Shown: piece by piece, positions 3,903-28,284 of the stretch
Numbering within the stretch: position 1 is the first letter of the stretch
Layout: each line of letters begins with the position of its first letter
Virus record (IMG/VR): IMGVR_UViG_3300005582_000018
Coordinates: 1 to 44,630 of that record
Direction: 5' to 3' (one strand)
Length of the DNA stretch: 44,630 nucleotides
Source of the DNA: a virus
The notes under the pieces: model-generated
Database searches by the model: none
The model's input: only the letters and a program-made list of their open reading frames with translations
Told to the model about the DNA's origin: nothing
Position numbers and translations under genes: made by a program

Positions 3903-4647
3903 GATGCCACTCCTTGACATTGTAGTGGAACGCACCTGACTGTGCCACTGTATTTACTCGCAGCAGATAGTCCCGGTATTCCCAGTTGAGTTCACGTGTC
4001 CAGTCTTCTGTTTGTGTACCTGCTACATGACGTTTCATGTGTGCTATGCGCGGATAATCAGCAAAGGGCATGGTACACTGTTCGGCACCAACAATATTGG
4101 CCGCCATGGCATACACCACATCAGTGGATGGCACATCTTCGGGAAACTTCAACAGTTTGCGATACTCACTCCAGTTTTCAAAAATACTGCGCACAGTATT
4201 AAAAAACGTCTGAGCTGTTTTGCTCCTGCGCCAATAGGTAATGGCATTGTACACATCAGGCAAATTGTTGGCATCAAACACCTGTCGATAATGGCGTGTT
4301 TTTGCTGTCTGATCTTTCCAGTCTCTACAGCCAGTTGACACCACAACGTCGCGATGACGTAGCATGGTCCACCAGTGGTCAATTGAGCTGGTAATCAGCA
4401 TGTCTGCTTCCAGTTTGATGGTTTCGCGAAACGGAGTCTTATCAACCACTTGCCAGTCATTGGCATAAGGATTGGCATGCACGGGTTCACTCAATTGATG
4501 AACATAGTTGAACAAGGTGTTGCTGATGGCGGTTTCGTCAGTGAGTAAACAGATTTGTGCATCAGGGTGCCAGTGTCGAATTGTTCCGGCAAGTGTGACC
4601 GCACAGTCAACATAATTGACTTGACTGCTATTTTGTGCCACAATCAA
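3889..4647 (-). CDS. GT8-like glycosyltransferase paralogue with degenerate DxD
   Basis: The frame is open from an ATG at 4722, but I prefer TTG at 4647. Alignment with the adjacent paralogue (4658-5470) starts there ([14 protein letters not shown] against ALIFAFNNEATDYVS), an AGGG lies four bases upstream, and this start avoids a 65-base overlap. The protein (~252 aa) has a Rossmann-like start and then a [14 protein letters not shown] motif matching TPWEQTLVLDADYV of its neighbour. The Asp-Ala-Asp of the paralogue is Glu-Ala-Asp here, so metal binding could be altered. Later parts share the [16 protein letters not shown] / WATVMMFRKSNTAAYIF pattern typical of GT8-like folds. The tandem arrangement suggests gene duplication followed by divergence. 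Substrate unknown. Confidence 0.6.
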
Positions 4648-4657
4648 GTAGCCCTGT

Positions 4658-5470
4658 TCAGCTATTGGCCGCAATGATGTCTCCAAGATGTTTTTTGCCC
4701 ATGGCATGAAAGTCCACGCCATTTAGAGAACAGTACAAATTTCCTCCATCAGACGCACGATGTGTGATTTTGAATGTTTCGTCGGCCTTGGCAATTTGTT
4801 CCAACTCGTACTCAGGCAGGATACTGGCCAGACTCCAGGGAATACTGTCAACTCTCCAGGTTCCGCCGCTGATGATTCCCAGGGCAATGCTCAGTGCAAA
4901 GTCATTGCGATAGGTATTTTTCTGAATCTTGTACAAGGCTCTGTAATGGTCCCAGTTGTCTCGCACCATGTGCATACAGTCAAATATGTAGGCTGCGGTG
5001 TTGCTCTTGCGAAACATCATCACAGTGGCCCAGCTCATGGGCATGCGATGTTCACCAAAGGTGTTTAGTTCATCCAGGTATCGTGACTTTGCAATATCAT
5101 AAGCACGGTCGTGACACATGAAGTCACGGCGACTGTTGATTACAAATTTCAACTGTGAACTGGCCACCACATAGTCTGCATCCAGTACCAGTGTCTGTTC
5201 CCAGGGAGTGAGAGTGTATGCATCTACTCTGCCAGCATTGTGCCAGGTCACAGTTGAGTTGTAGTCTTCAAAAAATCGTGTGCCACCGGATTCGGGCTCT
5301 GCGTAGATAACTTGATCAAATGTTTTGTTCAGTGCAGGATCTTGGCTGTTGGTCACAACAGCAACTGGTATGCCCAGATGGTGGCGAATACGACCTGCAC
5401 TCCAGGCGGCCATAGATACATAATCAGTGGCTTCGTTGTTGAATGCAAATATTAACGCACCGCAGGTCAT
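4658..5470 (-). CDS. GT8-like glycosyltransferase with DxD motif
   Basis: A 270-residue protein starting MTCGALIFAFNN at ATG 5470, which overlaps the stop of the upstream gene as ATGA. The order of elements fits a GT-A/GT8-like transferase: an N-terminal Rossmann-type strand, a YVSMAAWSAGRIRHHLGIP helix-strand, and TLVLDADYVVASSQL at about residues 91-105, whose D-A-D is a plausible metal/nucleotide-sugar motif. A mid-protein WATVMMFRKSNTA strand follows. It is paralogous to the next gene (3889-4647). There is no signal peptide, so it should act in the cytoplasm. The sugar donor and acceptor cannot be read from sequence. Homology to GT8 is by motif pattern only and is moderately sure. Confidence 0.6.
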   Translation of the reverse strand: MTCGALIFAFNNEATDYVSMAAWSAGRIRHHLGIPVAVVTNSQDPALNKTFDQVIYAEPESGGTRFFEDYNSTVTWHNAGRVDAYTLTPWEQTLVLDADYVVASSQLKFVINSRRDFMCHDRAYDIAKSRYLDELNTFGEHRMPMSWATVMMFRKSNTAAYIFDCMHMVRDNWDHYRALYKIQKNTYRNDFALSIALGIISGGTWRVDSIPWSLASILPEYELEQIAKADETFKITHRASDGGNLYCSLNGVDFHAMGKKHLGDIIAANS

Positions 5471-9349: not shown

Positions 9350-12300
9350 TTAAAAGCCTCGCAAAAACCTTGCGGCCTGAGTGTCGGTGTCTTGCAGCGC
9401 AACGCCGTCACTGGCTTCGTTTACGCCCTGTTGGTACCAGGTTACACCTTGGCGAACCAGAATTGTGACTTCTGCCCCTGCGGGCGGTGCTTCTAGTGGA
9501 GGATGCACATTGCCATCAACCACAAAGTCCACTGCCAACGGATCATAATCAGTCACAAACCAACGATAGCGGCTAACTGCTGTGGTGTCGCTGTAGGCAT
9601 ATTGCCGGATTCCGCCCACATAAACTTCCACAGCTGGACGCTCGCTGCTGGAATCCAAGAAGTCTTCAAACAAGATACTTGGTGCATAGAACACGCTGGT
9701 TGTACCGTCACCCAGTGTGGAATCGCTCACAATATAGTCCTGGAACTGCGCAGGCAACAAGTTACCACGCCCAATATCATATACGTCTGCACCACTTGAG
9801 TGAGCTGCTGCCCCTGTGCCCAGTGTGCCGCGCATGAGTCCAGAAATGGTGTTGAGAGCTGTGTTTCTTTCGCGATACATGATACGCTCGCCGTCAATAG
9901 TTACTGCTCCAAAAATACCCTGAGTCAAGTTGGGATCGCTTAGGGCAGAGGCATTGACAACATATGCAATGTTGTCTGTGGCTGTGAGATCTTGTGCCAG
10001 TGTTGTGGTTGTTGCATCAGTAATTCTGTAGGTTGCTTGAACGCCGCGCATGTCCTGGAACACTCTAAATGCCATGGCTTCTGGCACTATGCTGTTGGTA
10101 AATTCTGTAATTACCAGTACCTGTGCAGCGCCAATGGCTCCGGTGGCCAGGATCAAGTAACCGTTTTCAACCACATAGTCTGCACCTTCAAACAGTCTAT
10201 AGCCATCCAGTGTGACCCATAGTCTACCAGCAGCAACTGGATCACGTTGCAGGTAAAAGTCATTGGTAGCTATAAGCACACCGGCTGAATAATCATAGGA
10301 TCCCGGAGCTTCAGACACTGCACCTTCGTCATATGTGGTGCTGTCATATGGTTCGCTTACTGTGAGGCCAGTAAAGATTGGTCCCACAAATACCAGGCTT
10401 AGTGCGTTTTGTTGTGCAGTATCGTTCCAGGTAGTGACAGCAACAACGTCGTCAATATTGAGTGCAGACACAATCTGCAATGTTTGACCAACCACATCAA
10501 AGTCTGCTTCAGTGTTCACTGTGATCAAGATTCTTGATCCGCTGGCAGGCGGTGATGTAAACACAACCTGTCGCCCGGGTGTGTTTGAACCTGTCCAGTT
10601 TGTGACGCTGAATGATCCCACAGTTGCACCCACGCTTTGAACCTGCAGGATGTTGTCAACCCAGACCACAACATCTGTAGGAGCATTGATAATGTTTTGT
10701 TGATATCCGCCTCGTTGCGGCAGTCCAAAGCTCACACTCGAATCATCACCCAACCATTCAATACCCTCTGCTGGCTGCAGGCGCAGGCCGTTGCGAGTAA
10801 CAACCATGTTGACCGAGTTGGTGCCAGCGGCATTGTTGGTCAGGGTGAATATTTTTGTAGTAGCTTGGCTAGCATCAACCACAAAATACTGCACCTGTGG
10901 TGTACTCCAGCTGTAGGCTGTGGTTGCTTTGCCTGTTCCGCTGCCGATACTGGTTGCAGTAAACACAGTGCCCACAGTGTTTGCAGCAGCACCTACTGCG
11001 ACAAAGTTGGTGGTGCCCACAATAGAAATAGTGTACTGCTGACCAATTACAAAATAGCCGGCCTCTACAGTGGTCAGACCCAGAGCAGTCAACGAAATAC
11101 CTGCTCCTGGTCCAGGACTAATACCAAAATCAACTTGTGATTCTAATGTGGGCACAAACAACAGCCAGTAGGCCACGTCAGTGATGGCCACGCCTTGTGG
11201 TACTGCCTGAATTGCTCGATAGTAGTTGCCACTGTTGTTGACCACATCTAGTTTGGCATAGGTGTCAAGAATGTTCCAGTTTGCGCTGTCTATGTATGGT
11301 TCCCATGTAACTCCGCTGATGGTTTCACCGTTGACAAACACAGCCATGATGTTGATTTCTGCGCTGTTGACTGGAATAACAACTGTTTGTCCAGTGGTGC
11401 TACCTGGATAGTTGGCACGATACAATTGATTGCTGCCACCTAGTTCGTACACACTGATGTTTATGCCATCGCCATCGGCTACTGTGAGCAAAGTAATAGT
11501 CTGATCTTCCCACTGAACTGAGTAGTCTACGCCGCTGGCAAGATCTCGTCCAGTGGTTTGATTGCTGACCAGAATCTGCACAGGATGCTCAACTACTCCG
11601 GCCCAGCTGTAGACGTCTGTGACTGCTGCTTCATAGGTGTAGCGTATGCTGGTCAACTGGAATCCATGTCCATCACGGTTCCAGTCTGCACCTGGACGAG
11701 TGTACACTCGCATGTCTAGAGTATCAAATTCAGCACCGTTGACCAATTCTTCAGGAGAATGTCCTTCGTACAGTCCTATGAACTCACCACCCGCAACATT
11801 GATGTCAGTGGGCAAGGTACCCAAGATTACATCTGTAAACTCGCTGGTGTAGTCTGCATCCACTGCCAAGGGATCACGCAGGAAGTAATCGCCATACACC
11901 TGTACACCAGGATAGTCAACTCCATCAATCAAGAGTGGCAATTCAAGTCCAGGCTGGTTAACTCCCGGAACATACAAGCCCATGGTACGGTCAACGCCTG
12001 TTAGTCCATAAGATCCAAGGCCGTAGTTGAACGTAGCAGCATTGACCAGAGTCCAGTCTTCAAGATTAAATGTTGGCCCCACAACCGCAGTACTGGTACT
12101 GCTGGCAGCTTGCCACACACGGTCATCGTAACGAACCAGGTCACCGTCTTGATAAGTTCCGTTGGTGCTCCAGTCTCTTACATCTGAGAAATACTGGAAG
12201 CGGTCATAACGGATCACAGTACGGAAAGATCTTGCCAGGGTATAGGATTCTATAGTGGTCGGAACTGTGGCTGCATTGTATACTTGGCCACTGCCTTGGC

Positions 12301-15300
12301 CGTTTACCACAGCATAATATTCTGCGCCGGTGCCGTTGCCGCCAGTGATTGTGACTACAGGTGCTGCACGATATCCAGATCCTGATTGATCAATAGTAAC
12401 AGCCACCACTTGGCCCAGACTGTTGATTACTGCGGTACCAGTTGCGGTTACCCCCGCATAGCTCAGGGCGGCTGTGCCATCTGCTTGTGATCCACTAGTG
12501 AACAACGGAGCAATTGTTCCGGTGTCACCACCAGTTGTTACTGTGTACAAATTATCAACAAAGAATATTTGCTGTCCTGCTGTGACGGTGGTTGATGCTG
12601 TCCATTCTGTACCAAATATCACAGACGGAGGTGTGCTATAGCCAGATCCCTGGTTGACCACGAGAGTGCTGTCAATGCTCAACCAGTGGTTGTTGTACCA
12701 TTGTGAATAAGGCCAGGTGTTCCAGATTGTGCTGGCAGCAGATGCATCACTAGCAGTATTGATAGTTGAGTTAAATGCAGTACCAAGTTCGTATGGCAAC
12801 AACACAGGGCTAATGTATTTTGGAATTTCCAGTGTTGTGTCATAATACGCTGGTACATCAAAGTCAGTTAGGTCGCCTTGCGAAATGTCAAAACCAGTAT
12901 ACTTGAGATTGAACTCACGCACCTGCACATGGTATGGTTTGACTTCTTGAATGTAATCACTTACAAATTCTTGATTGTCACGCACATAGTTTTGGTACGG
13001 TAACAGTTGACGAATTCTGTGATCCACGTCAATCAAGCTGGTTTTTACCAGCCACTCAGGTGCAGAGAACTCGCTCAACACAAAGTTAAACATCAGTATC
13101 AGTGCTCGATTACGCTCAATAGCCAGGTCATCAACAAACAATTCTTCATTGATAGCCTGTATGATCTTGCGGGTTTCTGTAACAGGTTCTTGATCATAGT
13201 ATTGTGCATCAAACACTTCAATATCAAATCCAAAACGCCCCACAGCATAGTCCCAGAGCTCGTTGGAGAATGCAATTGTGCCATCTTGTAAGCCCACACG
13301 TTCATAACCAAGGTCAGTCAACAGATATATTTCATATTTGCCTTGTGCATTGGCAGTGACCTTGACGCTGCTGCCCACAGGAACATTGATTGCACCTAGA
13401 GCAGAGTACGTGACCACTTGTGTTATAATTTTGGTACTAGAGTTGTAACCTGGGCGGTACCAGTCAATGTAACTCCAGTAGTCTGCTGTATTGTACCCTT
13501 GCACACGAGTAAGAGTTAATACTCGAACACCAGGAGTTGTATCGCTGGCCGACACAGTGTAAATTGTCCACAGGCCGCGATTATTGCTGTCTGTTACCAC
13601 CAGATACCGGTAGCCCAGGGCCACAGTGTAGATATTCTGGAAGCCCAGGATCTCCAGGTTAGCAACTCGCAGATTCCATAATCCCGAATTGGCAGTTGGT
13701 TCCGGTTCTGAAGAGTTCAACAGATTGAAACTACGGCTTTCGCTGATGGGGTACTGTGCCAGCACAGTGTTGGCATGAGTCAGGTAGTTGCGCAGTGCTT
13801 CAAAGCGGTCGGTAAACATTGACTGGCGTGGACGGAACTGTACCCCGTATTGTTCAGCCACTCCTAAATTGGGATCTGGAACTTGATTACCAAAAGTATC
13901 AGTTCCGCAGAAACTGTCTTGTAGCTTGCGATACAGGTTGTCACTCAAGAACCCATTAGCGCGATCTTGTGCAATTAATTCATATTCAGTATGCACGTTG
14001 TCATTGGTCAATTCTCGATCAAACTCGATACTGATCACTGTGTCACTAGCTTCAATATAGTCCCCAGAATTGTACAACGCAATTGTACTAGCGTTGATTG
14101 GGGCCATGTAAGGAATACCGCTGGCCTTGGGATCAGCAATGTAACTGGCCACAGTGGATGCTGGCAGAGTCTTGTTGATTTTTGTGGATGTTGTGGTAAT
14201 GCCACGAACCCAGAAATAGTATTCTGTAGCAAACGTGCCATCCTTGGTCAGACGAGTGTTCACAGTGTACGACAATGACGACAACGGTGTGCCTTCTCCT
14301 GTGTAGTCGGCTGGTGCCACTGCACTCACAATCCACTGATACACATCAACTACGCTGCCTGGGAACAACTGAGCCCAGCGACGGCTGGCATACACAATGC
14401 TGTCTTGATTGGGGTCAATAAATCTTACTGAAGAGATATCCCACCAAATTTCCCCCACATGATCTGTATTCCATGTGGTTCCACGAATGTTTGTTGGTCC
14501 CACATTGTATGCTGCAGGATCAATCGCACCAATGTAGTCTATGTTTTGTCGGGCCGCACCAAGAATTTTGCCTTGCAATGGATCAATAAAGTCCAAGAAC
14601 TCAGAGGTTGCTCTAGTTACCCGGTCGTACAAGAACACGGAGTTCAACAGTCTCACGTCTACCACAGGTTGTTGTTGTTCCAACACCGTCCAAGCCAGAG
14701 AACGAGTGGGGTTTTCAAACACAAATACTGCACCAAAATCTGCTGTGCTATCTCCAGAATCATTCTTGGGAGCACCAACCATGAGTACACCAGATGTGTA
14801 GTTGACTGCTGTACCAAATCCATCCAGGGTCTGCACATTGCTGTTGTTGATTTGATCACCAAACACAAATTTGCCTGGATTGTTTATGTTGGAGGTTGAG
14901 CTAGGCAAGTAATCGTATGTGTATACTGCGCCGCTTTGTATGATCACCGTAAAGAATACTGTGCTACCAGCATCAAATATTGTAGTTCCATCATCAAACA
15001 CCGTTTCAAGATACAGGCTGCCTTGCGGTGCACCAACCACAAGATTAATTGCACTGTTGTCTATGCTGACACTGGAACCAAAACCGCTGAATTCAACTGG
15101 GTAAGGACTGAAAATTGTTTGTGTCCATGCATACGTATCAAACCCTAGATCAGCAAAAGTTGCACCAACTGTTCCCGGAGCCACATTGACTTTGTCTAGA
15201 GCCGTTGCTGCTGCTGAGTTCTTGACTCCAATAGTCAAGTATCCAGTGGTGTCAACTGTGGCCAACACATTGGGTACTGTGGTATTAATTGCACTGGCCA

Positions 15301-18300
15301 GGCTTGCCAACGTTGCAGCCAATGGAACTTCTACATCCATGTTGTTGATTCTAATTGTTTCTCCTGCAGTTAGCGCCGCAATAAAACTATATTGAATTCT
15401 ACCGTTAACTGTTCCGGTATTTTCGTACATACCAATAGTAAAACTTGGACTGTAGTCTGCGGCAGGGTCTTGTACTGCTTGGTATGTGTACAAACTAGTG
15501 ATAGTGCCATAGATTCTGCTTTGATTTACAAAACGTTCAACCACACCACCTTTGTAGATTTGAGCACTGCTTTGAGGTTCGCCTATGTACAAGCTGCAAT
15601 TGTTGGAACAGATATCCAGTGCTTGTCCAAAGTTTGAAAAATTTGCCACTGTCTGTTGATCGACTTGTTGTAGTTGTTGGAACTGATTGGTTTCAATTTC
15701 AATTATGTCACCAATCTGCAGATCAGCATTGATAGTTACTACTGACCCAGAAATTGTGAATGAGTTGGCTGCATTGATCACACTGTCAGTCTGATTGATC
15801 AAGAATTGATTGTTCACAATCACACTAACAGGACCAGTTGGAGTGCCACCTAGTACTGTGAATGTAATGCTGGATGTGTCTGTGCCGTAGATGAATCGTT
15901 GCACGTTGCGATCAAACACATAAACTGTGCCTGCTTCGACTAGAGTATCAATGGTGCGATATGGTGCGCCAATCATGACCTGACGACCATCTGTGCTGCA
16001 CGATACTGACTGTCCAAATCTATCACCGGCAGTGAGTCCGCCTGTGACCGAGGCAGTGTCAATGGTGTCTACATATTCAAAGTAACCTCCAGCAAATGCC
16101 ACCACAACGTCAGTTGATATACGTGCAGTAATAAATGTTACTGTGGTGCCCGAAAACGTGTAGTCAATATTGGGACGCCATAAATCTTCGTTGACCTTGA
16201 TACTGAACGAATATATGCTGTCAACAGTGAACAAGCCCACAGTGTTACCACTTGCATCCGTACCATTGGCCAAGTTAAATGTTGCAGCATTGTGGGGGAT
16301 CTGGAAGCTGTTGTATCTTGCAAATTCAATCAGTACCAAAGCTAAAACTGTTCCTGTGCCTGTGCCCACTGCTGTGGCCACAAATTCAACACCAACGGTG
16401 TTGCTGGCTGCGCCAATTAGGGTGTAGTTGGTATCACCAACTGTTAGAATTGTGTAGGTTTCGCCGGGCACAATTGCGGTGGCTACACTCACTCCCGGAG
16501 GTGTTGTGAGTCTTACTTCACTAAAGTTGTTGACAATAGTATAAGTTGCTCCGTAAGTTTGGATTTGGCCATTAAACGTTACTTTGAGTTGGCTGTTGTT
16601 GCTGATCTGTATCTGTGTGTTTATGTTATACACTGTGGTTGATCCATCAGCAGTGGTTTTGATTGATTGATTTTGCCAGTCAACCCGACCATATGCATGA
16701 ACTGAATTCAATCCTGGTGCACCAATATACATCCAACGTTCGTCAAGGCTCACAGCTACCGAGTAACCAAATTCTCCTGCGCCGGTGAGCAATGTGCCGT
16801 ATCCTGAGGGCTGTGTCAACAGTTGCCATTGTGCATAAGGAATAACACCAGGCTGACCCAGGGCCGGATCACGATATATCACTGCAACATATCCGTTGTT
16901 GGCTTGACTGCCCGATCCTAGACTCTTGCTGGCACCTGCTGCGGCCCAGGTTTGATTTCCAAAATCCACAGCATTACCGTATCCACGTACACCAGGCACA
17001 TCCAGGGTCAATATACCGTCCCCGTTGGCAACTGGACTTACAGGGCTGTATTGATCGCCATAGTTCTTGACATACACATACACCGCACCTGTTTCGGTTC
17101 CTGAGCCAAATCCATATTTGGGACTACCAACTAAAGCGGCCAGACGATTCTGTGCCTGTGTAACACTGACACCATATTGTTCGCCTGCATCCAACAGCAC
17201 GGGGTTCAGTTCCACAACATCTGAGAACACTGCGTTCTTTTGCAGTACTTGCCATAGTCCGCTACCGTTGTCGTCTACCCAGACCTTGGCGCCAGGCAAG
17301 ATGTTGTTGGCATAAGGTAAGTTAAGCACATCGCTGGCCTGTGCCACACGCATGGTCTTGAGTGTGAATCCCAGGCCTGTGCCGTTGGCCACAACTCTGT
17401 CACCAGTGAATGCAAACGCAATGTTCACTGTGGTCAGATTGGACACACTTAACACCTGGTAAACTCCGTTGATCTCTATGTCAAAGAACTTGATGATCAG
17501 TTTGTCACCGGTTGCAAGCCCGTGTTGAGTGCTGAAAATTACTCTGCTAGTACCGTCTAGGTTGTCGCAAACGTGCTGGATAATTCCGGGCACAGCCTGC
17601 GCACGATAGATGTTCCAGTCGTAGTCGTTGATCTTCGCTACCCAGACACTGGTACCAACCTTGATTGAGTCAATGTTGGCGCTGAGGCTGGCAGAATCTG
17701 CAATGTCAAACACTGTGATATCAGCGTCATTCAAGTTGACATAGCCCGCGGTAGGCAAACCAATGTCTGTGGGCAGAGTAGTGGTGGTTGGTAAAATCTC
17801 AGTACTGGTCAACTTGTAGCTTTGACGCCATACATCACTCAGCAAGATTTGTTGATCAGCTTCACTAACCTGTTGTGGTACTACCACTTGCACCAGACTA
17901 GGGTTGGCATCAAGTAGCGCACGGTTCAAGCGCAGTTCAAAGAAGCTGCGGTTGGCGTTGGCACCGTACACAGCACGTTGAACAGCCCAGTTTTCATAGA
18001 TGTCATAGTCAGCAGCTTCTTTGCCCAGATTGGCCTGTTTGAACAATTCAGCAGATAAAATTGTGCCTTTTGAGCCCAGGAATTGACGGTACACATTGAC
18101 CTGACTCACGTCGTCAAGATTCAGTGCCGCCATGTATTGTCGTGGATGAAATCCAATCAAGCCATAGCTGAGTAAATCATTGTCAGTTTCAATATTGGCT
18201 GAATTGATGTCGTAACTGTTGGCTAGTTGATTTGCTTTGTTGGCCAGGTTGGGCAACAGTCCCAGCTCAATTTGGGTGTAATCGCTTTGTGTCCACACAT

Positions 18301-21300
18301 TGAAATCAAACGTTTCTGATGGCTGTACAATTTTCAGTGCAGACCAATAGACATTTTTGTATTTGACAATCTGACCTTTGGTATACACTTGCAAACCGGT
18401 CCATTCTTCTACATTGTCTTGGTTGAGAATAAAGCCCGGTGCATCAACCGAACCATTCCAGTCACCGCTGGTCACAGCCACAAGACTTAATCTGCTTTGT
18501 CTTGCTCCAGTGGTCGGAGCGTATATGAGATCGCCAAACACACTTTGATTGCTCAGCACAATCATGTGTTCGTAATTGGTAAAGCGCATGTTGATAAAGC
18601 TGATACTTTGAGTACTCAGTGGTTCAATGCTGAAGGAGTTGCCTAGCCGCACAACATTTAGAGTACGAGTAGGGAGTTCTCTAGAATTCTGATCCAACAA
18701 CAAGTTTTCAGTAGTTTCTGTTTGCACACTATCAACCACAGCCTGTGCCTTGGACACACTGAGTTTACTTGCCAAAGGATTGATGTTGATAATAGCATCT
18801 GTGTCCCAGCCTTGTTGACTCCAGTACAGAAATTCGTTGACCATTCTTGGCCAGTCTAGTACATAACCATTGGCCATGTTGTCAAATGTGAGGCCTTGTT
18901 GCTCAAGTAGTTTGCCATAACTCAACAAGAAGTCTGCCACGCTGGTTTCATTGCTGAACACAAATCCATATGGCACCTGTACAACTGTGGTGGTGTAAAA
19001 TGTTGGCACACGAACTGTGATTCCGCCTGAACTGTATGTTTGCAACTTGCCGTTGGGATAGCTTTGCAGCACATTGAAATATGGTTGATTGTTACCATAA
19101 CCAAACACAGCATATCCGCCGGTGACTTTTTGTATAGCCACGCTGGAATAAATGATTTGATCAAACGGCTGATTCTTGTACAACAAGATATCGTAGCTTT
19201 CATCAGGAATCATCAAGGCAGTGTTGGTGGAATTGGGGCTGGACTTTTCAGTAAACAACTTGATGTACTGCTTGTCGGAGAATGATGCCATGCGATAGCA
19301 CAGTCTCACATCTATACTCTTGAGATCAGCTGTTAGCAGTTTGGTCGAATCAACACCGGTCTGGCGATTGTAATCAACCAACCAGTTGATGTAACTGGCT
19401 TTTGACACACCGTCACCATATACTTCTACGCCGTTGGCATCCAGTCGATAACGATTGTTGTAGAGATATTGTTGATAATCTTCGTTGTAGCGATACAAAT
19501 CACGATCAGCAAACAGCGCAAAGAATTTTGCAGGGCGTGTGACTGCCAACATGTGCATGACTGAGAATGGATATGAGCTGGAGTTCCACCATGACGCTTC
19601 CACAGGGCCGCCATCGCCAAGGATCCAGCTCTTGACAAATTCTGTAGATGGATTATAATTTGGAGGCAGTGCGCCCACAACACTGTTGAGTGGGCTCAGT
19701 ATCTCACCTTCAGATCCTGTGGGAATCACAGGCAACATGCTGGGGTATGGGCCCGATCCGTACTTGTCGTACCAGATGCCTTCACGCTTGGGTCCAGCTA
19801 CCAGGCTGGCAGCTCTGGCAAACTCAGGCTTGAAGTATGGTGTGACTGGATCAGCAACATAACCGGCTGCTAGATCGTCCCACAACACCAAGTTATCACT
19901 GGTATAAGGTGCAGGGCCATAGGTATCTTGCCACCAGGTGGGTTCTACGCTAATGCCCAGCATTTCCCAAGGAGTCAAACTTGGCTGTTGAGTATCATAG
20001 TAGTATCGATAGATGCCGCGCCAGGCACCCAGTAAATTTTGTTTGTCTAGTCGACTTTGCGCCTGGCTATAGTTCCAGGTGAATTCATTGTTGGCTCTGT
20101 AATTTTGTTGGCCGTAGTCCAGTTTGTTCCAGCCGCAATAGCTCAAGAAGTCAGTGGCAAAAACAGTATTGATTTCTTCAAAGGTGTAACCAGTTGAGCG
20201 GAACTGGCCAGGCAACACATCTTCCGTCAAGAGTGGCACAGGATTTCCGTCCAGTTTGAGATTGTTATAAATTCTTGTTTCAAATTCTAGCAACACAGCA
20301 TCACGGATATCGCCAAACACTGGAGTGGTGCTACCGTCGTGTCCCAGTACAAAATTACTGGTACCGTTACTGGTCACTTGTGGTATCACTGCTGGTTTCC
20401 AGGCAGGATACAAGCCAAGTTTGGTTGGTGTGTTGGGTACAAATGAGCCGTATGTGGTCGAGTATTCATTAATGGTAACTATGTCACCAAGGGTCAACGT
20501 ACTCAATATTGTAATACGTGGTCCGTCAACTGCCACAGTGTAGTCAATCCCGCGAGTTAACAGTTGGTCATTTAGATATACCAACAGGCCGAGATAATTT
20601 GCTGAAGTATAATTGTACACCTGCACCGTATCAAATACCTGTGTGGTAATAAAACTCACAGTGTAGGCGTTGCTGTCTGTGATAACGCCAGCGGGCAACA
20701 TGTCACTCCAGTAAAACGGTTGATTGTCAAGTTTGCCCAGAGTTACTGATTGTATAGCAGTATCCAACACCTGTGCTGTGGTATCAAATCCAATGTTCTG
20801 AGACAGTACTGCGTCCAGCAATTGTGCTTTGAACTTGATATACTCGCGGCTGTTGTATTGCAACGACGCAAAAATATTGTACTCTGGGCTGCGCATAAAG
20901 TAGCCGGCCAGGGTCAGAGGCGCACTTTGTTGCAGAATCACTAGACCGTAAGGAACAATGTCCCCAAGATCTCTAGTGTTGTTGGCCCCGTTGACTGGTC
21001 CAGTTAGAGTTATCAAGTTTTCGCAAATACTCTGATAGTGGGTGCGAATTGTGCCCAAGGTAAATGAGCTCGAGTTAGCATTGAGCGGATTTGATTCAAG
21101 GTTGTTGGGCACTTGATAAAATGCCACCTTGCTGGTTTGATCACTCAGTACCAACACTTCAATAATATCGCCAAGAATATATGTACCCAACAGTGTGATT
21201 GTGGTGCTGTCTGCTGTGGTCACATAGGAGTAGGTTGAAGGGTCTTGGAATATGCTACCAACATATATTTTAATAACTGGAACAGCAATGGAAGTTTGTA

Positions 21301-24300
21301 CAGTCAGTGCCACATCAAGTTTGAGTGTGGTAGCAGCATAAGAGAATTTGAATTGCTGATAAATTTGTTGTTCTACAGCCGCAGTTTGCCATCCAATCAG
21401 TTTGTTGTATGTCAAACGAGAGTCATATTCTCTAGCTGAACCCGAACTGATGTCGTTGGTCACACTCACATTGTCCACAACATACAAGAATGTATCCAGA
21501 TACAAGTTGTTGTCAAATACAATATCACCCACGTTGTTGATATTCAAATATTGTAATGGGAATTGCAATACTGGATCCAGCACAGAGGTGTTACCCACAG
21601 CATAGCTAAACAATTTGCTGCCGCTAAATGTAGTGGACTGGTACTTGGTACCGTTGCCAAAGCTGACTCCGTCAACATCATAGATATTGTACAACGGAGC
21701 CTGTTGAACCGCAGTTTTTTGTTGTGCTTGAGTCCATAATACTCCATCATACCAAAAAGTCAATCCAGCCAGAGTGGTACCACTGATACAAACAGCTGAT
21801 TGATCTAGTAGAACGTCCCCATCTTGTGCCAAGGTCAACACAATAATAGGTTCTGGAATTAGTGGTGGCACAGTGTCGGGTGTGACAAAACTTACCACAT
21901 AAATTTTATTTCGAACAGCACTATCTTGATCTGCTGCAAATATTACTCGAGTACCTTCAACAAAGGTGTAACCATCAACACTGTAACTGGTTGAGCCTTC
22001 AATATTTGAAAATGCATCTGTTTCTTCAAAGTCAAAAATGTCCACAGGTGCTTTGCCTTGTGTGCCCATATTCCAGAGTCTAATACCTGGACGGAATTGA
22101 ACGATTGGCCGCTTGGCACGATAGTTGTTGTCAAATACCGCTGTGGTGTTGTTGTATGCTGCGGTGGCGTTGATAACATCAACGTGAAACCAACGATTGC
22201 TTCGTGTCCATGCATTTAGATCCTTGCTGGCACGATCAATTGTGAGATAATCCAAATCCGTGGGTTCTATTAGAATCGTGCTGGTGTCTGCATCTTGAAC
22301 ATAAGATTCAGGAGTAACAAAATCTATAACTGGTAAAAGTTCAATTGCTGTGCCTACTCCAGACACATAGTATTCTCGATTGCTGATAGCAATACTGTTC
22401 ATAGAGCCTGTACCATCAGCCAAGGTCACGGCCGTGCTGCCGTACTGAACCGCACTCACAGTAAACTTTGTGCCGTTGGCTGCAATTGATCGCACATAGT
22501 AGGTGGTACCTGCATCTAGGCCACCTATTGTAAAAGTTACAAAAACCACAGCTTGGCCAACATATAAATTGGTACTAGAAGAACTAGTAATATAATTGGT
22601 CCCTGCTTCAGTTTGAGTACAAGTAAATGCTGTTGTGCCTGACGCATAACTAGAGGGAATAACATCACCTGTGAATCTTACTTTGAGACCGTTGGTAAAT
22701 TTAACACCATTTGGAGAAGTGTAATCTTTGCGGCCAATAATTTCGTCTACATCTATAGTATTGCTAGCGGTCTGATCAATTAGTTTAATCTCTCCAAATA
22801 TTTCTGGATCAGTACCATCCTGATAGTACAGTGTGTTTTGTATAGCACTTAACAAGGGTATTTGTTGGAATTCACCTGTAGAATCCTTGTACCACTGTGT
22901 ACTGCTATAGGTAGTACCGTTGGAGATTGTGAATTTTTGCAAGGGAGCAATGTCAGCAATCTTGTTCAGTTGAATATAGATTACTCCAGCAATATCCACA
23001 TAGGTGATCTGATATTTTTGATATCGTTGATCTGGAGCAATGTCTATGGTAAGATCAAATGGTATACTGTCATAGCTGCCGTTTAGACTGTTGTTGGCAG
23101 GGTCTTGAATCAACGGATCAAAGAAACTGGTACGATACCAGCCACCATCCTGTGTGTCCTCAATAGGATTTGTAAAGATTATTGTACGGCTGTTGAGGTT
23201 GGTGTTGCCGTCAATACCGCCATAGGTGGCTATAAATTCATCTACTCGTTGATTGTTTATTTGCGCAAACTGCAGGTCAGTCAGCAGGTCAACGGTACCA
23301 ATGTTGGTAAGATTGTAGTAGAAATCTTGGGCTGTTTTTAGAGGCACGTTGAACACCACAGTTCCAAGATCTTCACCATTGTTGACCACGCCTAGCACAT
23401 CTCTTGAACTGATGTTAGGTGTGGATGTTACTGCACCTGAAACGCCCGGTGTTGACTGAATCCAGAAACCTGGACCTGTGCCTGCTATAGAATTAACAAT
23501 ATTCAATGTGCCTTGCATCAACACTTGATTTTCCGAAGCATAGTACAGAATATCTGGAGCATCCTGTGGCACAGTAAATGTGACCAAGCCAGTTGTGGCA
23601 CCGTTGCGAGTCACACCAGAACTGTATATTTCGCCAAGGCCTGTGACAGGTTCAGTCTTGATCCAGAATGGAAATATACCACTCAGTGTCAGGTTGAATA
23701 CGTAGGTGTTTCCGCGAGCCAGAGTTAGTGTGGGATTGTTTTGAAAATCAATCACATAAGCACCAACACCAGAATTTCGAACTCGATAGTTTACAGTTTC
23801 CTTGGCATTTTGTGACACTTGAAAAGTGTAGCTGCCGCCTCGTACCAGTTGAATAATTGGATCTGTACCAGCGATTCCAGAAAATTTGTAAACACCATTT
23901 TCTCTTGTGACTACAAAATTATCAGTAATTGGAATACCAACGGAAGCAACATCAACTGCTGCTGGTCCCGCAGGCACCCAAAAATATTGACTGAAGTTTA
24001 CAAACGCATCAAAGTCAACAAACGGATCCCAGGTATAGTATTCACTTGAATACAATCTATCAGGTCGAGATCCTGCGCCGCCTTGAAAAGTCACAGCATC
24101 GTTGAGACCCGGATATGTTATGACATCCTTGATTGTGTCGGTGTCTGGCTCCAGACTCACAACACCAGGTTCCAGTTGATAGTCAGCTCTGGTTGTTGTG
24201 GGCTCAATCACATATTGATCGTTGGGATTGACACCTGGACCCACTGTGCGGCCAATAAACCCTTGTGTCTTTTTAAAGTTGGGCTCTTGAATCAGTTGAT

Positions 24301-24382
24301 CAAGGGTAGCTGCCAGGAACTGCTTGTTGGCATCAGTCTGAAATATTTCAGGAAGAAAATCTACACTACGAACATTAGCCAT
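9350..24382 (-). CDS. Giant (5010 aa) virion structural protein in the gene-7 position, with FG-GAP propeller and repeated beta modules
   Basis: One uninterrupted 15-kb frame. The start MANVRSVDFLPEIFQTDANK is a pattern I know from very large structural proteins of marine myoviruses. Visible parts in order: an N-terminal conserved region (1-150); a cupredoxin-like beta domain (~220-292) lacking the copper ligands; an ASKDLNAWTRSNRWFHVDV region (~710-800); many short beta modules of the type 'V-x-N/D-G...G-x-D-Y-T...GD-x-(I/V)'; seven FG-GAP blades (~2400-3220); a conserved YIQEVKPYHVQVREF region (~3830); two 'T-N-(Y/F)-x-x-(I/V)-GAA-x-NTVG' modules (~2640-2680 and ~4445-4490); and a C-terminal VEVYVGGIRQY module. 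The gene follows gp6 by a TAATG overlap, the position of T4 gene 7 (1032 aa), so it probably serves as an enlarged wedge/periphery protein that may also bind the host surface. Homology to gp7 itself is not shown. Confidence 0.85.
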   Translation of the reverse strand: MANVRSVDFLPEIFQTDANKQFLAATLDQLIQEPNFKKTQGFIGRTVGPGVNPNDQYVIEPTTTRADYQLEPGVVSLEPDTDTIKDVITYPGLNDAVTFQGGAGSRPDRLYSSEYYTWDPFVDFDAFVNFSQYFWVPAGPAAVDVASVGIPITDNFVVTRENGVYKFSGIAGTDPIIQLVRGGSYTFQVSQNAKETVNYRVRNSGVGAYVIDFQNNPTLTLARGNTYVFNLTLSGIFPFWIKTEPVTGLGEIYSSGVTRNGATTGLVTFTVPQDAPDILYYASENQVLMQGTLNIVNSIAGTGPGFWIQSTPGVSGAVTSTPNISSRDVLGVVNNGEDLGTVVFNVPLKTAQDFYYNLTNIGTVDLLTDLQFAQINNQRVDEFIATYGGIDGNTNLNSRTIIFTNPIEDTQDGGWYRTSFFDPLIQDPANNSLNGSYDSIPFDLTIDIAPDQRYQKYQITYVDIAGVIYIQLNKIADIAPLQKFTISNGTTYSSTQWYKDSTGEFQQIPLLSAIQNTLYYQDGTDPEIFGEIKLIDQTASNTIDVDEIIGRKDYTSPNGVKFTNGLKVRFTGDVIPSSYASGTTAFTCTQTEAGTNYITSSSSTNLYVGQAVVFVTFTIGGLDAGTTYYVRSIAANGTKFTVSAVQYGSTAVTLADGTGSMNSIAISNREYYVSGVGTAIELLPVIDFVTPESYVQDADTSTILIEPTDLDYLTIDRASKDLNAWTRSNRWFHVDVINATAAYNNTTAVFDNNYRAKRPIVQFRPGIRLWNMGTQGKAPVDIFDFEETDAFSNIEGSTSYSVDGYTFVEGTRVIFAADQDSAVRNKIYVVSFVTPDTVPPLIPEPIIVLTLAQDGDVLLDQSAVCISGTTLAGLTFWYDGVLWTQAQQKTAVQQAPLYNIYDVDGVSFGNGTKYQSTTFSGSKLFSYAVGNTSVLDPVLQFPLQYLNINNVGDIVFDNNLYLDTFLYVVDNVSVTNDISSGSAREYDSRLTYNKLIGWQTAAVEQQIYQQFKFSYAATTLKLDVALTVQTSIAVPVIKIYVGSIFQDPSTYSYVTTADSTTITLLGTYILGDIIEVLVLSDQTSKVAFYQVPNNLESNPLNANSSSFTLGTIRTHYQSICENLITLTGPVNGANNTRDLGDIVPYGLVILQQSAPLTLAGYFMRSPEYNIFASLQYNSREYIKFKAQLLDAVLSQNIGFDTTAQVLDTAIQSVTLGKLDNQPFYWSDMLPAGVITDSNAYTVSFITTQVFDTVQVYNYTSANYLGLLVYLNDQLLTRGIDYTVAVDGPRITILSTLTLGDIVTINEYSTTYGSFVPNTPTKLGLYPAWKPAVIPQVTSNGTSNFVLGHDGSTTPVFGDIRDAVLLEFETRIYNNLKLDGNPVPLLTEDVLPGQFRSTGYTFEEINTVFATDFLSYCGWNKLDYGQQNYRANNEFTWNYSQAQSRLDKQNLLGAWRGIYRYYYDTQQPSLTPWEMLGISVEPTWWQDTYGPAPYTSDNLVLWDDLAAGYVADPVTPYFKPEFARAASLVAGPKREGIWYDKYGSGPYPSMLPVIPTGSEGEILSPLNSVVGALPPNYNPSTEFVKSWILGDGGPVEASWWNSSSYPFSVMHMLAVTRPAKFFALFADRDLYRYNEDYQQYLYNNRYRLDANGVEVYGDGVSKASYINWLVDYNRQTGVDSTKLLTADLKSIDVRLCYRMASFSDKQYIKLFTEKSSPNSTNTALMIPDESYDILLYKNQPFDQIIYSSVAIQKVTGGYAVFGYGNNQPYFNVLQSYPNGKLQTYSSGGITVRVPTFYTTTVVQVPYGFVFSNETSVADFLLSYGKLLEQQGLTFDNMANGYVLDWPRMVNEFLYWSQQGWDTDAIININPLASKLSVSKAQAVVDSVQTETTENLLLDQNSRELPTRTLNVVRLGNSFSIEPLSTQSISFINMRFTNYEHMIVLSNQSVFGDLIYAPTTGARQSRLSLVAVTSGDWNGSVDAPGFILNQDNVEEWTGLQVYTKGQIVKYKNVYWSALKIVQPSETFDFNVWTQSDYTQIELGLLPNLANKANQLANSYDINSANIETDNDLLSYGLIGFHPRQYMAALNLDDVSQVNVYRQFLGSKGTILSAELFKQANLGKEAADYDIYENWAVQRAVYGANANRSFFELRLNRALLDANPSLVQVVVPQQVSEADQQILLSDVWRQSYKLTSTEILPTTTTLPTDIGLPTAGYVNLNDADITVFDIADSASLSANIDSIKVGTSVWVAKINDYDWNIYRAQAVPGIIQHVCDNLDGTSRVIFSTQHGLATGDKLIIKFFDIEINGVYQVLSVSNLTTVNIAFAFTGDRVVANGTGLGFTLKTMRVAQASDVLNLPYANNILPGAKVWVDDNGSGLWQVLQKNAVFSDVVELNPVLLDAGEQYGVSVTQAQNRLAALVGSPKYGFGSGTETGAVYVYVKNYGDQYSPVSPVANGDGILTLDVPGVRGYGNAVDFGNQTWAAAGASKSLGSGSQANNGYVAVIYRDPALGQPGVIPYAQWQLLTQPSGYGTLLTGAGEFGYSVAVSLDERWMYIGAPGLNSVHAYGRVDWQNQSIKTTADGSTTVYNINTQIQISNNSQLKVTFNGQIQTYGATYTIVNNFSEVRLTTPPGVSVATAIVPGETYTILTVGDTNYTLIGAASNTVGVEFVATAVGTGTGTVLALVLIEFARYNSFQIPHNAATFNLANGTDASGNTVGLFTVDSIYSFSIKVNEDLWRPNIDYTFSGTTVTFITARISTDVVVAFAGGYFEYVDTIDTASVTGGLTAGDRFGQSVSCSTDGRQVMIGAPYRTIDTLVEAGTVYVFDRNVQRFIYGTDTSSITFTVLGGTPTGPVSVIVNNQFLINQTDSVINAANSFTISGSVVTINADLQIGDIIEIETNQFQQLQQVDQQTVANFSNFGQALDICSNNCSLYIGEPQSSAQIYKGGVVERFVNQSRIYGTITSLYTYQAVQDPAADYSPSFTIGMYENTGTVNGRIQYSFIAALTAGETIRINNMDVEVPLAATLASLASAINTTVPNVLATVDTTGYLTIGVKNSAAATALDKVNVAPGTVGATFADLGFDTYAWTQTIFSPYPVEFSGFGSSVSIDNSAINLVVGAPQGSLYLETVFDDGTTIFDAGSTVFFTVIIQSGAVYTYDYLPSSTSNINNPGKFVFGDQINNSNVQTLDGFGTAVNYTSGVLMVGAPKNDSGDSTADFGAVFVFENPTRSLAWTVLEQQQPVVDVRLLNSVFLYDRVTRATSEFLDFIDPLQGKILGAARQNIDYIGAIDPAAYNVGPTNIRGTTWNTDHVGEIWWDISSVRFIDPNQDSIVYASRRWAQLFPGSVVDVYQWIVSAVAPADYTGEGTPLSSLSYTVNTRLTKDGTFATEYYFWVRGITTTSTKINKTLPASTVASYIADPKASGIPYMAPINASTIALYNSGDYIEASDTVISIEFDRELTNDNVHTEYELIAQDRANGFLSDNLYRKLQDSFCGTDTFGNQVPDPNLGVAEQYGVQFRPRQSMFTDRFEALRNYLTHANTVLAQYPISESRSFNLLNSSEPEPTANSGLWNLRVANLEILGFQNIYTVALGYRYLVVTDSNNRGLWTIYTVSASDTTPGVRVLTLTRVQGYNTADYWSYIDWYRPGYNSSTKIITQVVTYSALGAINVPVGSSVKVTANAQGKYEIYLLTDLGYERVGLQDGTIAFSNELWDYAVGRFGFDIEVFDAQYYDQEPVTETRKIIQAINEELFVDDLAIERNRALILMFNFVLSEFSAPEWLVKTSLIDVDHRIRQLLPYQNYVRDNQEFVSDYIQEVKPYHVQVREFNLKYTGFDISQGDLTDFDVPAYYDTTLEIPKYISPVLLPYELGTAFNSTINTASDASAASTIWNTWPYSQWYNNHWLSIDSTLVVNQGSGYSTPPSVIFGTEWTASTTVTAGQQIFFVDNLYTVTTGGDTGTIAPLFTSGSQADGTAALSYAGVTATGTAVINSLGQVVAVTIDQSGSGYRAAPVVTITGGNGTGAEYYAVVNGQGSGQVYNAATVPTTIESYTLARSFRTVIRYDRFQYFSDVRDWSTNGTYQDGDLVRYDDRVWQAASSTSTAVVGPTFNLEDWTLVNAATFNYGLGSYGLTGVDRTMGLYVPGVNQPGLELPLLIDGVDYPGVQVYGDYFLRDPLAVDADYTSEFTDVILGTLPTDINVAGGEFIGLYEGHSPEELVNGAEFDTLDMRVYTRPGADWNRDGHGFQLTSIRYTYEAAVTDVYSWAGVVEHPVQILVSNQTTGRDLASGVDYSVQWEDQTITLLTVADGDGINISVYELGGSNQLYRANYPGSTTGQTVVIPVNSAEINIMAVFVNGETISGVTWEPYIDSANWNILDTYAKLDVVNNSGNYYRAIQAVPQGVAITDVAYWLLFVPTLESQVDFGISPGPGAGISLTALGLTTVEAGYFVIGQQYTISIVGTTNFVAVGAAANTVGTVFTATSIGSGTGKATTAYSWSTPQVQYFVVDASQATTKIFTLTNNAAGTNSVNMVVTRNGLRLQPAEGIEWLGDDSSVSFGLPQRGGYQQNIINAPTDVVVWVDNILQVQSVGATVGSFSVTNWTGSNTPGRQVVFTSPPASGSRILITVNTEADFDVVGQTLQIVSALNIDDVVAVTTWNDTAQQNALSLVFVGPIFTGLTVSEPYDSTTYDEGAVSEAPGSYDYSAGVLIATNDFYLQRDPVAAGRLWVTLDGYRLFEGADYVVENGYLILATGAIGAAQVLVITEFTNSIVPEAMAFRVFQDMRGVQATYRITDATTTTLAQDLTATDNIAYVVNASALSDPNLTQGIFGAVTIDGERIMYRERNTALNTISGLMRGTLGTGAAAHSSGADVYDIGRGNLLPAQFQDYIVSDSTLGDGTTSVFYAPSILFEDFLDSSSERPAVEVYVGGIRQYAYSDTTAVSRYRWFVTDYDPLAVDFVVDGNVHPPLEAPPAGAEVTILVRQGVTWYQQGVNEASDGVALQDTDTQAARFLRGF
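14710..17195 (-). repeat. Seven FG-GAP (integrin-alpha-like) blades with inserted domains
   Basis: Inside the giant virion protein, seven segments follow the pattern 'F/Y-G-x-(S/A)-V ... (V/I)-G-(A/S/E)-P/S ... G-x-V-x-V-(Y/F)': QYGVSVTQ...LVGSPKYG (~residue 2410), GYGNAVDF...AAGASKS (~2465), EFGYSVAV...YIGAPGLN (~2533), RFGQSVSC...MIGAPYRT (~2783), NFGQALDI...YIGEPQSS (~2915), GFGSSVSI...VVGAPQGS (~3098) and GFGTAVNY...MVGAPKND (~3187). Seven is the blade number of integrin-alpha beta-propellers. Blades 3-4, 4-5 and 5-6 are separated by other beta domains, so those domains would project from the propeller edge. Confidence 0.7.
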
Positions 24383-27300
24383 TAAATTACTCCGCTACCA
24401 GGGGCAGTACGCAAATTGGTACTGGTAAGTGCTTCAATCACATCAACATTGTTGATGGTTGCGCCGTTGACAAATATTTCATTGGGCGCTGAACGTATTT
24501 CGTACAGATCACCAAAGTATTTCTGTGGATCAAGTGGTACCAAGACCACTGAGCTGACTATTGTTCCAAGTGTTCGATGCAAGTATGCCGCCAATTCTGA
24601 GAAGTAAAAAGTATCGCCAAAGTTCCATTTGTCAATGGAAAAATATGTGTTCATGGCCGCTACCACTGCGCTTTTGATTTCACTAGTGCTGGCTGTGCTG
24701 TTTGATGCACGTATGACCTTGATAGTGGCTCGCAGATTAGATGCGGCTTTTTCACCAAACAAGGGTTTGAATACCACTGAATTCAACACAATGTTGTCGC
24801 TCAGCATTTTGTAATCTTGTAGTTTTTGATATGCTGTTGACAGTTCGTCGATGCTGGGCACATCTGGCTCAATCACTGTGCCTGTGGTGTCACGAATCCA
24901 GTTTTGGTATGCTGTGTAGTAAGACAAGGTCACAACGTACAAGTCAATGATATTGGTTGTGCCTGGATCAATTCTGCTGGTCAGTGGACTGTTGTGACGG
25001 TATTGATAATACAAATCTTGACGCCCGGTTCGAACAGTCCATTCAGCGGACACATCTATGAGTGTTCGCAATCCTGTGGTACCAATGCTGAGTTCGTAGA
25101 ATGCTTGATCAGTGTAGGCGTAGAATACTTGTCCTGGACTCCAGGCCAATTTGACCAATTCAATATCGTCCAGTGTAGCGTAGTCACTGGTCACACGACC
25201 AGATTCTACCAGCAGGTATCTTTGAAGATTATCAAAGTCCACAGTCTTTTGCAGATATATGTATTTTTGAGTGCTGTCTACTGTGGGGGCCACAATCTCA
25301 GAGAAAAAGTCTGGGTTGTCTGGCACGCCGTCATTGTCGCTGTCACGGAATCCCACCAGGACCTGGAAGTCATCAACATAACCGTCGCTCTCAACTGGCT
25401 GTCCGGTAATAGTCATAAAGATATCGCCGGGCAAATGATCAGTTGAGTCAGGTTGTGTGTTTACCGCCAAGCAGTTGATATAGTCTTTAATCACAGTTCC
25501 AGAGCGACTGTCGTAGACTTGTGCGCCATCATAGAAGAAGAAGCGAGTCTGCAGCACTGATCCAAAGTAGTAGGCCAGGCCGCGGAATGTGATTGTGTAG
25601 TTTTGATTTTGCACCACAAACTGCACCAACCAGGAAGCATCTTGATTAGTCCCTGCAGTTGAGCCTGCATTGGCCTGACTAAATGTAGTGTTTGCTGCCA
25701 GATTTGTGCTGGTGATCAAGTACCACGAATATGGTGTACCTGTGATATCTCCGTTGTTGTCATAGCCAATACCAAAGTTGCGATTCAACAAAATTTGTTC
25801 AGCCATGGCCTGTTCCAGGCTGAGTGGCAGGTCTGTAACAAACAGCGGAATGATAGTGTCTACTAGTGCGCCCGAAGGTACAAAGTTGTTGAGTGCAACT
25901 GGTCCTGAACCAGAACTCAAGTTGCCTAGGCCGTTGTTGTAGCCGTCGCCTTGTATGCTCAATGGACTGGCCCAGATTTCCAGTGTTTCGTCAGCGCGAC
26001 TTGGTGTGCCTTGTTGCAACTTGTTGTTGCTGTCAAAGTAATAGCCTGATGGTGCAACAAATTTAATTAGGCTGCCTACAGCCACGTATTTGAATGCTGT
26101 TGTGGTTGTGGAGCCAATTGGTATCGGAGTTCCGTTGGGCCAGGTGGCTGATGTTATTGCGTTTCTAAAATAGCCAGTGGTCTCATTGGCCAGTGTTGTG
26201 CTTTGATTCCAGGTGGCACCGGTGACCCAGGTGGTTGACCCGTATGTGGGCAGGGTGGTTGCTGTGACTCTGGGAAAGTTCTCATAGTAAAACTGCCGCA
26301 TGGTGGTTTCACCAATGCCGGGCTGTACCTGATTGGTGACCACGTCTGCAATTTCATTTCTATTGGTGTAGGCAAACAAGATTGTGGGCAGAATATTCTG
26401 TTTCCATAGTCCACCGTCGCTGCCAAAGGTATTGGTGCTGGAATATTTTCCTGTGTTGTCTACAAGGTCAAGATAACGACTGGTACCAATTGATGCACGG
26501 TTCAGAGCCTTGCTTTTCACAATTGAATTGTATTGTGTGTAAGGAAACAGGTTGTAGTCTTCACCGTTGACCATGCGATTCTGTGTGTAGTATCTAGCAG
26601 GCGCACGTTGCTTGATGGCGTCAATGCTTTCACGAGCTTGACTGTTGCTGACTGGTCTTGTGATACCACAAGTGAATGTCATGGTCTCAAGGTTGCCATT
26701 GCGGCTGATGTAACTGATAGGAACAGTCACAGCCTGCATTTCTTCAGGGTTGATGATGTATTGCAAGCCGTTGGATGCACGAACATACGCACGATATGTT
26801 CCCACTGGAATTTCTGAGAACACCCCATCGCCAAACACCATGGTGATTTGATCATTGGTTCTGGATGTCACTGTGTAGATCGGTCGCAGTGTTGTGCCCA
26901 CTTGTTCTGCGGCAGCCGCATAGATGTTTTCGGTATAGTTCCACTCACGACTCACACTGCCCACATTGTCCAACTGGAACAACCAACGGTCTTCGTTGTT
27001 GACGCCTTCAATGTTGATGTTTACTGTGCGGTTTGATACTTTTTCAGCCAGGTTGAAGTCTTGGTTTTGCAGCACGCCTTGTTTGAACATAAAGAAGTAG
27101 CCGGTGTTGGCTGACTGGAATCCCAGTTGATCATTGCGGAACAAGATGTTGAATGGTTGGTTAGCTCTTGGCGGAGGCTCATATAGATATGTGGCACCCA
27201 CAGATGTTGAGCTCATGACCTCAAAAGGCATGGTAACACCATCAACCACAGCGGTGTAAGGCACTATGGGCAAGAATCCTGGCACCAGGTTAACTGCATA

Positions 27301-27906: not shown

Positions 27907-28284
27907 TTATACATAGGAGGCACTGCGCTGTTGCAGATCAAAGAAAATACTCAGCCGCTCGGCATCTGTAGACGGGATCACAGTAAGCTCTACCTGAATC
28001 AGGATACCATTTTCTTGTGGGAAGGTCACAACTTGACTGATAAAAATTCTTGGGTCGCCACCGGCCACACGTTGCACTTCTCGTTCTATTGCCTGCTGCG
28101 ATGCTTCCACTTGATTTTCAAACAAAAAGTCCCAGAGCACTGTGCCGTAGGCAGGGCGCCCAGGTAACTGACCCTGACGAATGTTGAACGCATTCAGCAG
28201 GTCACGTTTGATCAGTTCAAAGTCTGTGAGAGTAAATTTTTTGTATTGCCCTTGAGTGTTAAAGCCAATGAATTTTTGTGCCAT
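27907..28284 (-). CDS. 25: Baseplate wedge protein gp25-like
   Basis: A 125-residue protein beginning MAQKFIGFNTQGQYKKFTL. Residues ~42-56 hold RPAYGTVLWDFLFEN, matching the gp25 family pattern in which an (E/R)-P-x-(Y/F)-G segment precedes a helix containing LFE. A later EVQRVAGGDPRIFI helix-strand matches the family as well. In T4, gp25 joins gp6 and gp53 in the wedge core and helps start sheath assembly. The length equals the family's usual 120-135 residues. It lies between the Ala/Gly-rich protein (17-base gap) and gp6. There is no Shine-Dalgarno sequence in the short leader, so expression may depend on read-through and reinitiation. Confidence 0.88.
   Translation of the reverse strand: MAQKFIGFNTQGQYKKFTLTDFELIKRDLLNAFNIRQGQLPGRPAYGTVLWDFLFENQVEASQQAIEREVQRVAGGDPRIFISQVVTFPQENGILIQVELTVIPSTDAERLSIFFDLQQRSASYV

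Follow-up and report, generated by a model that had tools for sequence, protein, structure and literature searches.

The window analysed here, the full 44,630-nt stretch of IMG/VR record IMGVR_UViG_3300005582_000018, carries on its minus strand an uninterrupted open reading frame (ORF; 9350–24382) for a 5,010-amino-acid (aa) giant virion protein of the PHROG 10938 family, within which a run of seven repeats (17191–14699, minus strand; propeller span residues 2398–3236) very probably forms a seven-bladed FG-GAP beta-propeller of the same family as the integrin alpha head, inserted in one hairpin. The best overall explanation, which we hold with slightly better than even confidence, is a single hairpin insertion followed by the development of a one-faced platform that contacts the host surface. 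An initial annotation of this DNA had placed seven FG-GAP blades at 14710–17195, as many as in the integrin-alpha propeller; location, blade number and integrin-like count were all borne out by Pfam matches, blade profiles, compact relatives and the predicted structure.

In the 1,500-aa segment holding the propeller, Pfam recognised no family other than FG-GAP_2 (PF14312), which matched four stretches (E = 1.8e-13, 50.8 bits, curated cut-off 23) and gave its strongest single-blade match in blade 4 (E = 1.5e-8, 31 bits). Profile comparison and the structure model delimited blade 1 (17039–17191, residues 2398–2448), blade 3 (16670–16786, residues 2533–2571), blade 4 (15893–16033, residues 2784–2830) and blade 5 (15506–15646, residues 2913–2959), all on the minus strand, and together with Pfam also blade 7 (14699–14833, minus strand, residues 3184–3228). 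Blade 6 (14900–15097, minus strand, residues 3096–3161) has a long b2-b3 loop, present in compact relatives too, and matched blade 6 of these relatives with 99.2% probability. The FG-GAP repeat of blade 2 (16847–16999, minus strand, residues 2462–2512) is degenerate, with four strands in the model. In profile-profile comparisons six of the seven blades paired mutually, most pairs at 57–97% probability (low-scoring exceptions among these six were blades 3 and 7 at 17% and blades 5 and 7 at 3%), while nine non-blade control segments from the same region gave 4.3% or less. Blade 2 of the window family reached no more than 7% against its sister blades, and among the blades of compact relatives it matched blade 2 best (60%, E = 9e-5).

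A search of IMG/VR with the propeller region found 162 relatives, of which 78 loci were kept; where complete, the giant-protein ORF in these loci was almost always 4,400–5,300 aa long. Compact relatives displayed seven mutually matching blades (21/21 pairs at 90–99%), and FG-GAP_2 was matched at E ≤ 0.01 in 25 of 26 of them (best 2.3e-32, 111 bits). Window-type and compact propellers aligned end to end in profile comparison (100%, E = 1.2e-51). DxDxDG-type Ca2+ loops lie between strands 1 and 2 of blades 4/5–7 in integrin alpha; the integrin Ca2+ motif DxDxDGxxD was present in 0 of 166 propeller proteins.

An AlphaFold model of the window propeller, built on 56 relatives, had seven blades with inserts (predicted local distance difference test (pLDDT) 81.4, predicted template modelling score (pTM) 0.83), and its top three Foldseek matches in PDB were integrin alpha-5 heads (template modelling (TM) score 0.60 against 4wk2_A, normalised by 4wk2_A length). 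Against viral models, an uncultured phage protein ranked first, followed by FG-GAP-type giant-virus proteins; this closest fold match, A0A6J5L8L4, may belong to the same protein family. To remove the effect of the inserts we also modelled a compact relative, L118, which had been found via the anchor downstream of the insertion site. Its model (pLDDT 79.2, pTM 0.82) comprised seven blades of four strands each, its 50 best PDB matches were all integrin alpha chains (best E = 3.6e-16), and its TM score against 4wk2_A was 0.66 with the same normalisation.

That the region is no propeller, and its beta repeats are merely generic ones in a phage structural protein, would be in keeping with the weakness of blade 2 and with the window-type profile, which alone reached an integrin among PDB sequences at a non-significant E = 0.53; a phmmer search of PDB with the window propeller itself likewise gave no useful match. 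The compact-family profile, however, matched the integrin alpha-4 sequence at 3.8e-16, followed by other integrin alpha chains among PDB sequences, and this match, the Pfam scores, the fold search and the blade profiles contradict the generic-repeat explanation so consistently that we give it hardly any credence.

The position of the propeller within the giant protein could be read directly across loci. The first strand pair of the recipient hairpin, VWVDDNGSGLWQVLQK, lies at 17237–17287 (minus strand, residues 2366–2382) and its returning strand, AWTVLE, at 14675–14692 (minus strand, residues 3231–3236); the latter aligns with the W..R strand of propeller-less relatives, in which the first-strand motif is found too (for example AYVDDGGIVEGAWTVYKR in L152). 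Where propeller-less L152 reads continuously, AYVDDGGIVEGAWTVYKRAQGRWTAFR, the sequence in L118 runs from VFADSDSNGNWGVYEKS through the propeller to TAGWNLLR, and in the window from VWVDDNGSGLWQVLQK through the propeller to AWTVLEQQ, which puts the propeller at the turn of a beta-hairpin. The site was further measured by the distance between flanking anchors in 160 additional loci. Without a propeller this distance was 209 aa in PBECO4, 236 in L152, 269 in Vibrio 2.275 and 322 in PA5oct, with several uncultured loci also falling within 209–322 aa, and the site in propeller-less phages holds a short hairpin or other sequence; with a propeller it was ~640–880 aa in compact loci and ~950–1,200 aa in those of the window type.

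In a 137-row tree built from the flanking parts with the site itself excluded (a quick tree whose root is not known), all propeller proteins fell into one clade (Shimodaira-Hasegawa-like approximate likelihood ratio test (SH-aLRT) support 100; 3 changes versus 42 in shuffles). On this sequence evidence the propeller was probably gained once, a single gain being the simplest reading of the clade. Three members of the clade were scored as lacking a propeller by the blade hidden Markov model (HMM); FG-GAP-like stretches were visible by eye in all three of these apparent exceptions, with weak FG-GAP_2 matches in two of the three and modules resembling carbohydrate-binding modules (CBMs) inside the FG-GAP-like stretches of two of the three. 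A search with the single protein against 84,980 genomes did not reveal a cellular source of the propeller.

Several other observations concern the same site. In L142, L150 and L157 the propellers look eroded and have one or two CBM5/12-like modules inserted. Another large giant-protein lineage, the L176–L214 group (e.g. L188:6490–8973 and L183:6583–8979), has ~830 aa at the site and no propeller, with one CBM5/12 match and, by eye, repeated modules with many 'INDAGI..V.A' sequences, reminiscent of flagellin IN motifs. Atu_ph07 (L085:15289–19572) has ~1,500 aa of extra repetitive sequence there. The insert of SCTP-2 at this site has a LamG-like look, but had no Pfam match, and no such identity is claimed.

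Different extra sequence in this region in other lineages (SCTP-2, Atu_ph07 and the L188 group) could speak for neutral elaboration, in which propeller and inserts are a size-increasing decoration of a tolerant hairpin with no specific ligand. The clade nevertheless keeps seven blades with conserved strands, and eroded propellers occur in only a few relatives; we consider such neutrality improbable.

The three inter-blade inserts of the window protein are later than the gain of the propeller. FG-to-FG spacings of 63, 81, 54, 68, 57 and 92 residues in L118 compare with 65, 70, 251, 129, 183 and 88 in the window, so that the window has gained ~190 residues between blades 3 and 4, ~60 between blades 4 and 5 and ~125 between blades 5 and 6. 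These gains correspond to insert 1, with three modules (16037–16666, minus strand, residues 2573–2782), insert 2 (15647–15901, minus strand, residues 2828–2912) and insert 3 (15098–15511, minus strand, residues 2958–3095; delimited by the model and loop lengths). Within the same giant protein, the modules of insert 1 matched residues 991–1135, 1216–1360 and 4411–4780 (up to 97% probability) and that of insert 2 matched residues 1216–1360 and 991–1090 (89–95%). Taken as a pair, the two inserts had matches around residues 991–1135, 1216–1360 and 4231–4780, and both consist of modules that the protein also uses in other places, of which they are copies. Insert 3 had no strong match elsewhere in the giant protein in profile comparison. 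The initial annotation was therefore right that domains separate the blades and wrong in calling all of them unrelated, as inserts 1 and 2 copy modules present elsewhere in the same protein. Module 1b has 56% identity to part of residues 4411–4510. One small module occurs in two copies, one within the propeller (16283–16465, residues 2640–2700) and the other far towards the C-terminus (10853–11152, residues 4411–4510), which are 56% identical over 39 columns; cyanophage S-TIM54 has a short stretch similar to it.

Conservation along the giant protein is lowest in two 50-residue bins that fall within insert 1 (residues 2601–2700), where the identity of relatives to the window was 0.42–0.47. CBM5/12-like modules were seen in the propeller span of ~15 other relatives. 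The window protein has a CBM5/12-like module in its C-terminal part (12041–12181, residues 4068–4114; 17.9 bits in Pfam, below the cut-off of 26.2), and in other phages a small HMM including this copy detected related modules lying between the blades of the propeller.

Loop lengths across the 56 relatives differed sharply by position. The b1-b2 loops were of constant length in all seven blades and the standard deviation of b3-b4 loop length was at most 1.9 residues, whereas b2-b3 loops reached 97 residues and b4-b1 loops 260, with differences of tens to more than 100 residues. Integrins have their Ca2+ loops at b1-b2 and b3-b4 and the FG-GAP/Cage motif at the other end of the blade (PMC3192720), and their alpha-I domain sits between blades 2 and 3 (PMC3192720, PMC12422189), that is, in a b4-b1 loop. 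The variable b2-b3 and b4-b1 loops thus put the phage inserts on the face that bears alpha-I in integrins. The expectation that extra domains would radiate from the propeller rim did not hold, as inserts and length changes are confined to these loops on one face. Growth of extra modules from one propeller face only suggests that the propeller is a virion platform that binds on one side.

The 5,010-aa tail-tip (baseplate) protein belongs with the giant virion protein of RaK2/121Q/PA5oct-like jumbo phages. Three parts of it matched phrog_10938 'virion structural protein' (E = 2.5e-198, 2.5e-68 and 1.5e-16), tblastn of the giant protein against PA5oct gave 7e-102, and in a tblastn search of 50,697 phage records the upstream part had matches in 86 jumbo-phage records, including PA5oct, Atu_ph07, 121Q/PBECO4, Salicola SCTP-2 and Vibrio 2.275. 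As in PHROG 10938 relatives, the gene is placed directly after that of a gp6-like baseplate wedge subunit (24382–27858, minus strand; phrog_10646, E = 4.2e-278, with tblastn matches to jumbo-phage wedge proteins), and its neighbours include a gp25-like wedge subunit (27907–28284, minus strand; phrog_261 and phrog_43) and a hub protein gene. A homologue of the giant protein was detected in PA5oct virions by mass spectrometry, and CBB_236, identified here as another homologue, was detected in CBB virions with 21 peptides by the same technique (PMC5259590). The baseplate setting in the virion proposed by the initial annotation was thereby upheld. Sequence kinship with T4 gp7 was looked for and not found, as profiles of three parts of the protein matched no phage chain among PDB sequences; a gp7-like place is suggested by gene order only. 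Elsewhere in the window, three radical-SAM-domain proteins are encoded near the tail module (1257–2654, 41853–42725 and 42718–43821), and an SbcCD-like nuclease pair lies on the opposite strand (37400–41866).

The baseplate wedge setting also speaks for an alternative that we regard as possible though distinctly less probable, namely that the propeller is a docking scaffold for other virion proteins (tail fibres or neighbouring wedges) and the inserts are their sockets. Integrin propellers always bind another subunit (PMC3192720), the modules reused in inserts 1 and 2 occur elsewhere in the same structural protein, and the invariant opposite face suggests a fixed contact. Against docking, the least conserved stretch of the protein lies in insert 1, which would be atypical of a protein-protein socket, and related phages that lack the propeller still build virions.

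The insertion and platform explanation that we favour would run as follows. In what was probably a single event, an integrin-alpha-type FG-GAP beta-propeller very probably entered a beta-hairpin on the surface of the giant baseplate protein of RaK2/121Q-like jumbo phages; because the two ends of a closed propeller lie side by side, a hairpin can take it up and leave the remainder of the chain undisturbed. It would then have served as a platform. Only on one face did the loops receive modules, either ones already used elsewhere in the protein or, in some relatives, carbohydrate-binding-like ones, while the opposite face stayed fixed. The propeller would be exposed at the baseplate periphery, and its variable face may contact the host cell surface (glycan or protein) reversibly, before the baseplate changes shape. 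The odds of this host-binding role we judge to be about even; receptor binding is plausible, and a role in docking other parts of the virion would be almost as good a fit.

Several points weigh against this explanation. Relaxed constraint could also yield the high variability of the inserts. The predicted ring can be superposed on integrin alpha heads, and its closure is deduced from the whole-length match of the models. The rest of the giant protein matched no solved structure, which leaves gene order and PHROG labels as the grounds for placing it in the baseplate. The search of phage records found no cultured phage of the propeller clade: tblastn with the propeller matched nothing at E = 1e-3, and its two hits at E = 10 were short, weak and located in insert 1.

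Across a large set of uncultured jumbo phages, an integrin-type fold lies within the baseplate protein. An insertion site definable to a few residues, close relatives with and without the propeller and the addition of modules on one side only make it possible to test concretely how nested domain insertion enlarges giant phage proteins, and whether the baseplate itself, beyond the fibres, carries host-binding heads.

The FG-GAP propeller fold and the giant protein family are both known already; their combination and the nested, one-sided growth were not found in the open-access literature searched. In that literature no paper was found linking FG-GAP with a phage baseplate or tail fibre, nor any description of a phage protein of such architecture, in agreement with the initial annotation. 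A beta-propeller in a jumbo-phage virion protein is known from CBB (CBB_552; PMC5259590), although the CBB propellers are of the Kelch type and encoded by separate genes away from the baseplate cluster. The PHROG 10938 giant protein of RaK2/121Q/PA5oct/Atu_ph07 phages (CBB_236) is homologous over most of its length and follows gp6, but the isolates have a short hairpin or other sequence at the propeller site, and the giant proteins of five isolates, scanned whole, had no FG-GAP family match. Viral FG-GAP-type propellers are known by name or fold from Mantoniella virus MntV1 (PMC11467894) and from BFVD entries A0A5J6VJ74 and A0A6J5S3H5, and a separate Atu_ph07 protein named hemagglutinin (A0A2L0UZX4) has a fold match to the propeller; judging by names and lengths, the FG-GAP proteins of giant viruses and uncultured phages are separate proteins, whereas the window propeller is nested. 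Bacterial integrin-type propellers (Chouhan et al. 2011, PMC3192720, which does not mention phages or viruses) share with the phage propellers the Pfam family FG-GAP_2, whose curated cut-off the phage propellers exceed, but the bacterial set in that paper keeps the Ca2+ sites and the phage propellers do not.

The integrin alpha head shares with the phage propeller seven four-stranded FG-GAP blades, the same fold and detectable sequence kinship. The phage propeller, however, is internal in a 5,010-aa virion protein rather than N-terminal in a receptor, its inserts at 3/4, 4/5 and 5/6 are not vWA domains, and the hallmark integrin alpha arrangement of N-terminal propeller, thigh/calf, membrane anchor and beta partner is not that of the phage protein. 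Alpha-I integrins resemble it further in having extra domains inserted between blades (PMC3192720, PMC12422189). Only tentatively, and as a reading less likely than not, can it be proposed that phages evolved an alpha-I-integrin-like design independently of animals, a baseplate propeller whose ligand-side face is retargeted by module swapping; if true, swaps of beta-modules and CBM5/12-like modules would give jumbo phages an exchangeable adhesion head separate from the tail fibres.

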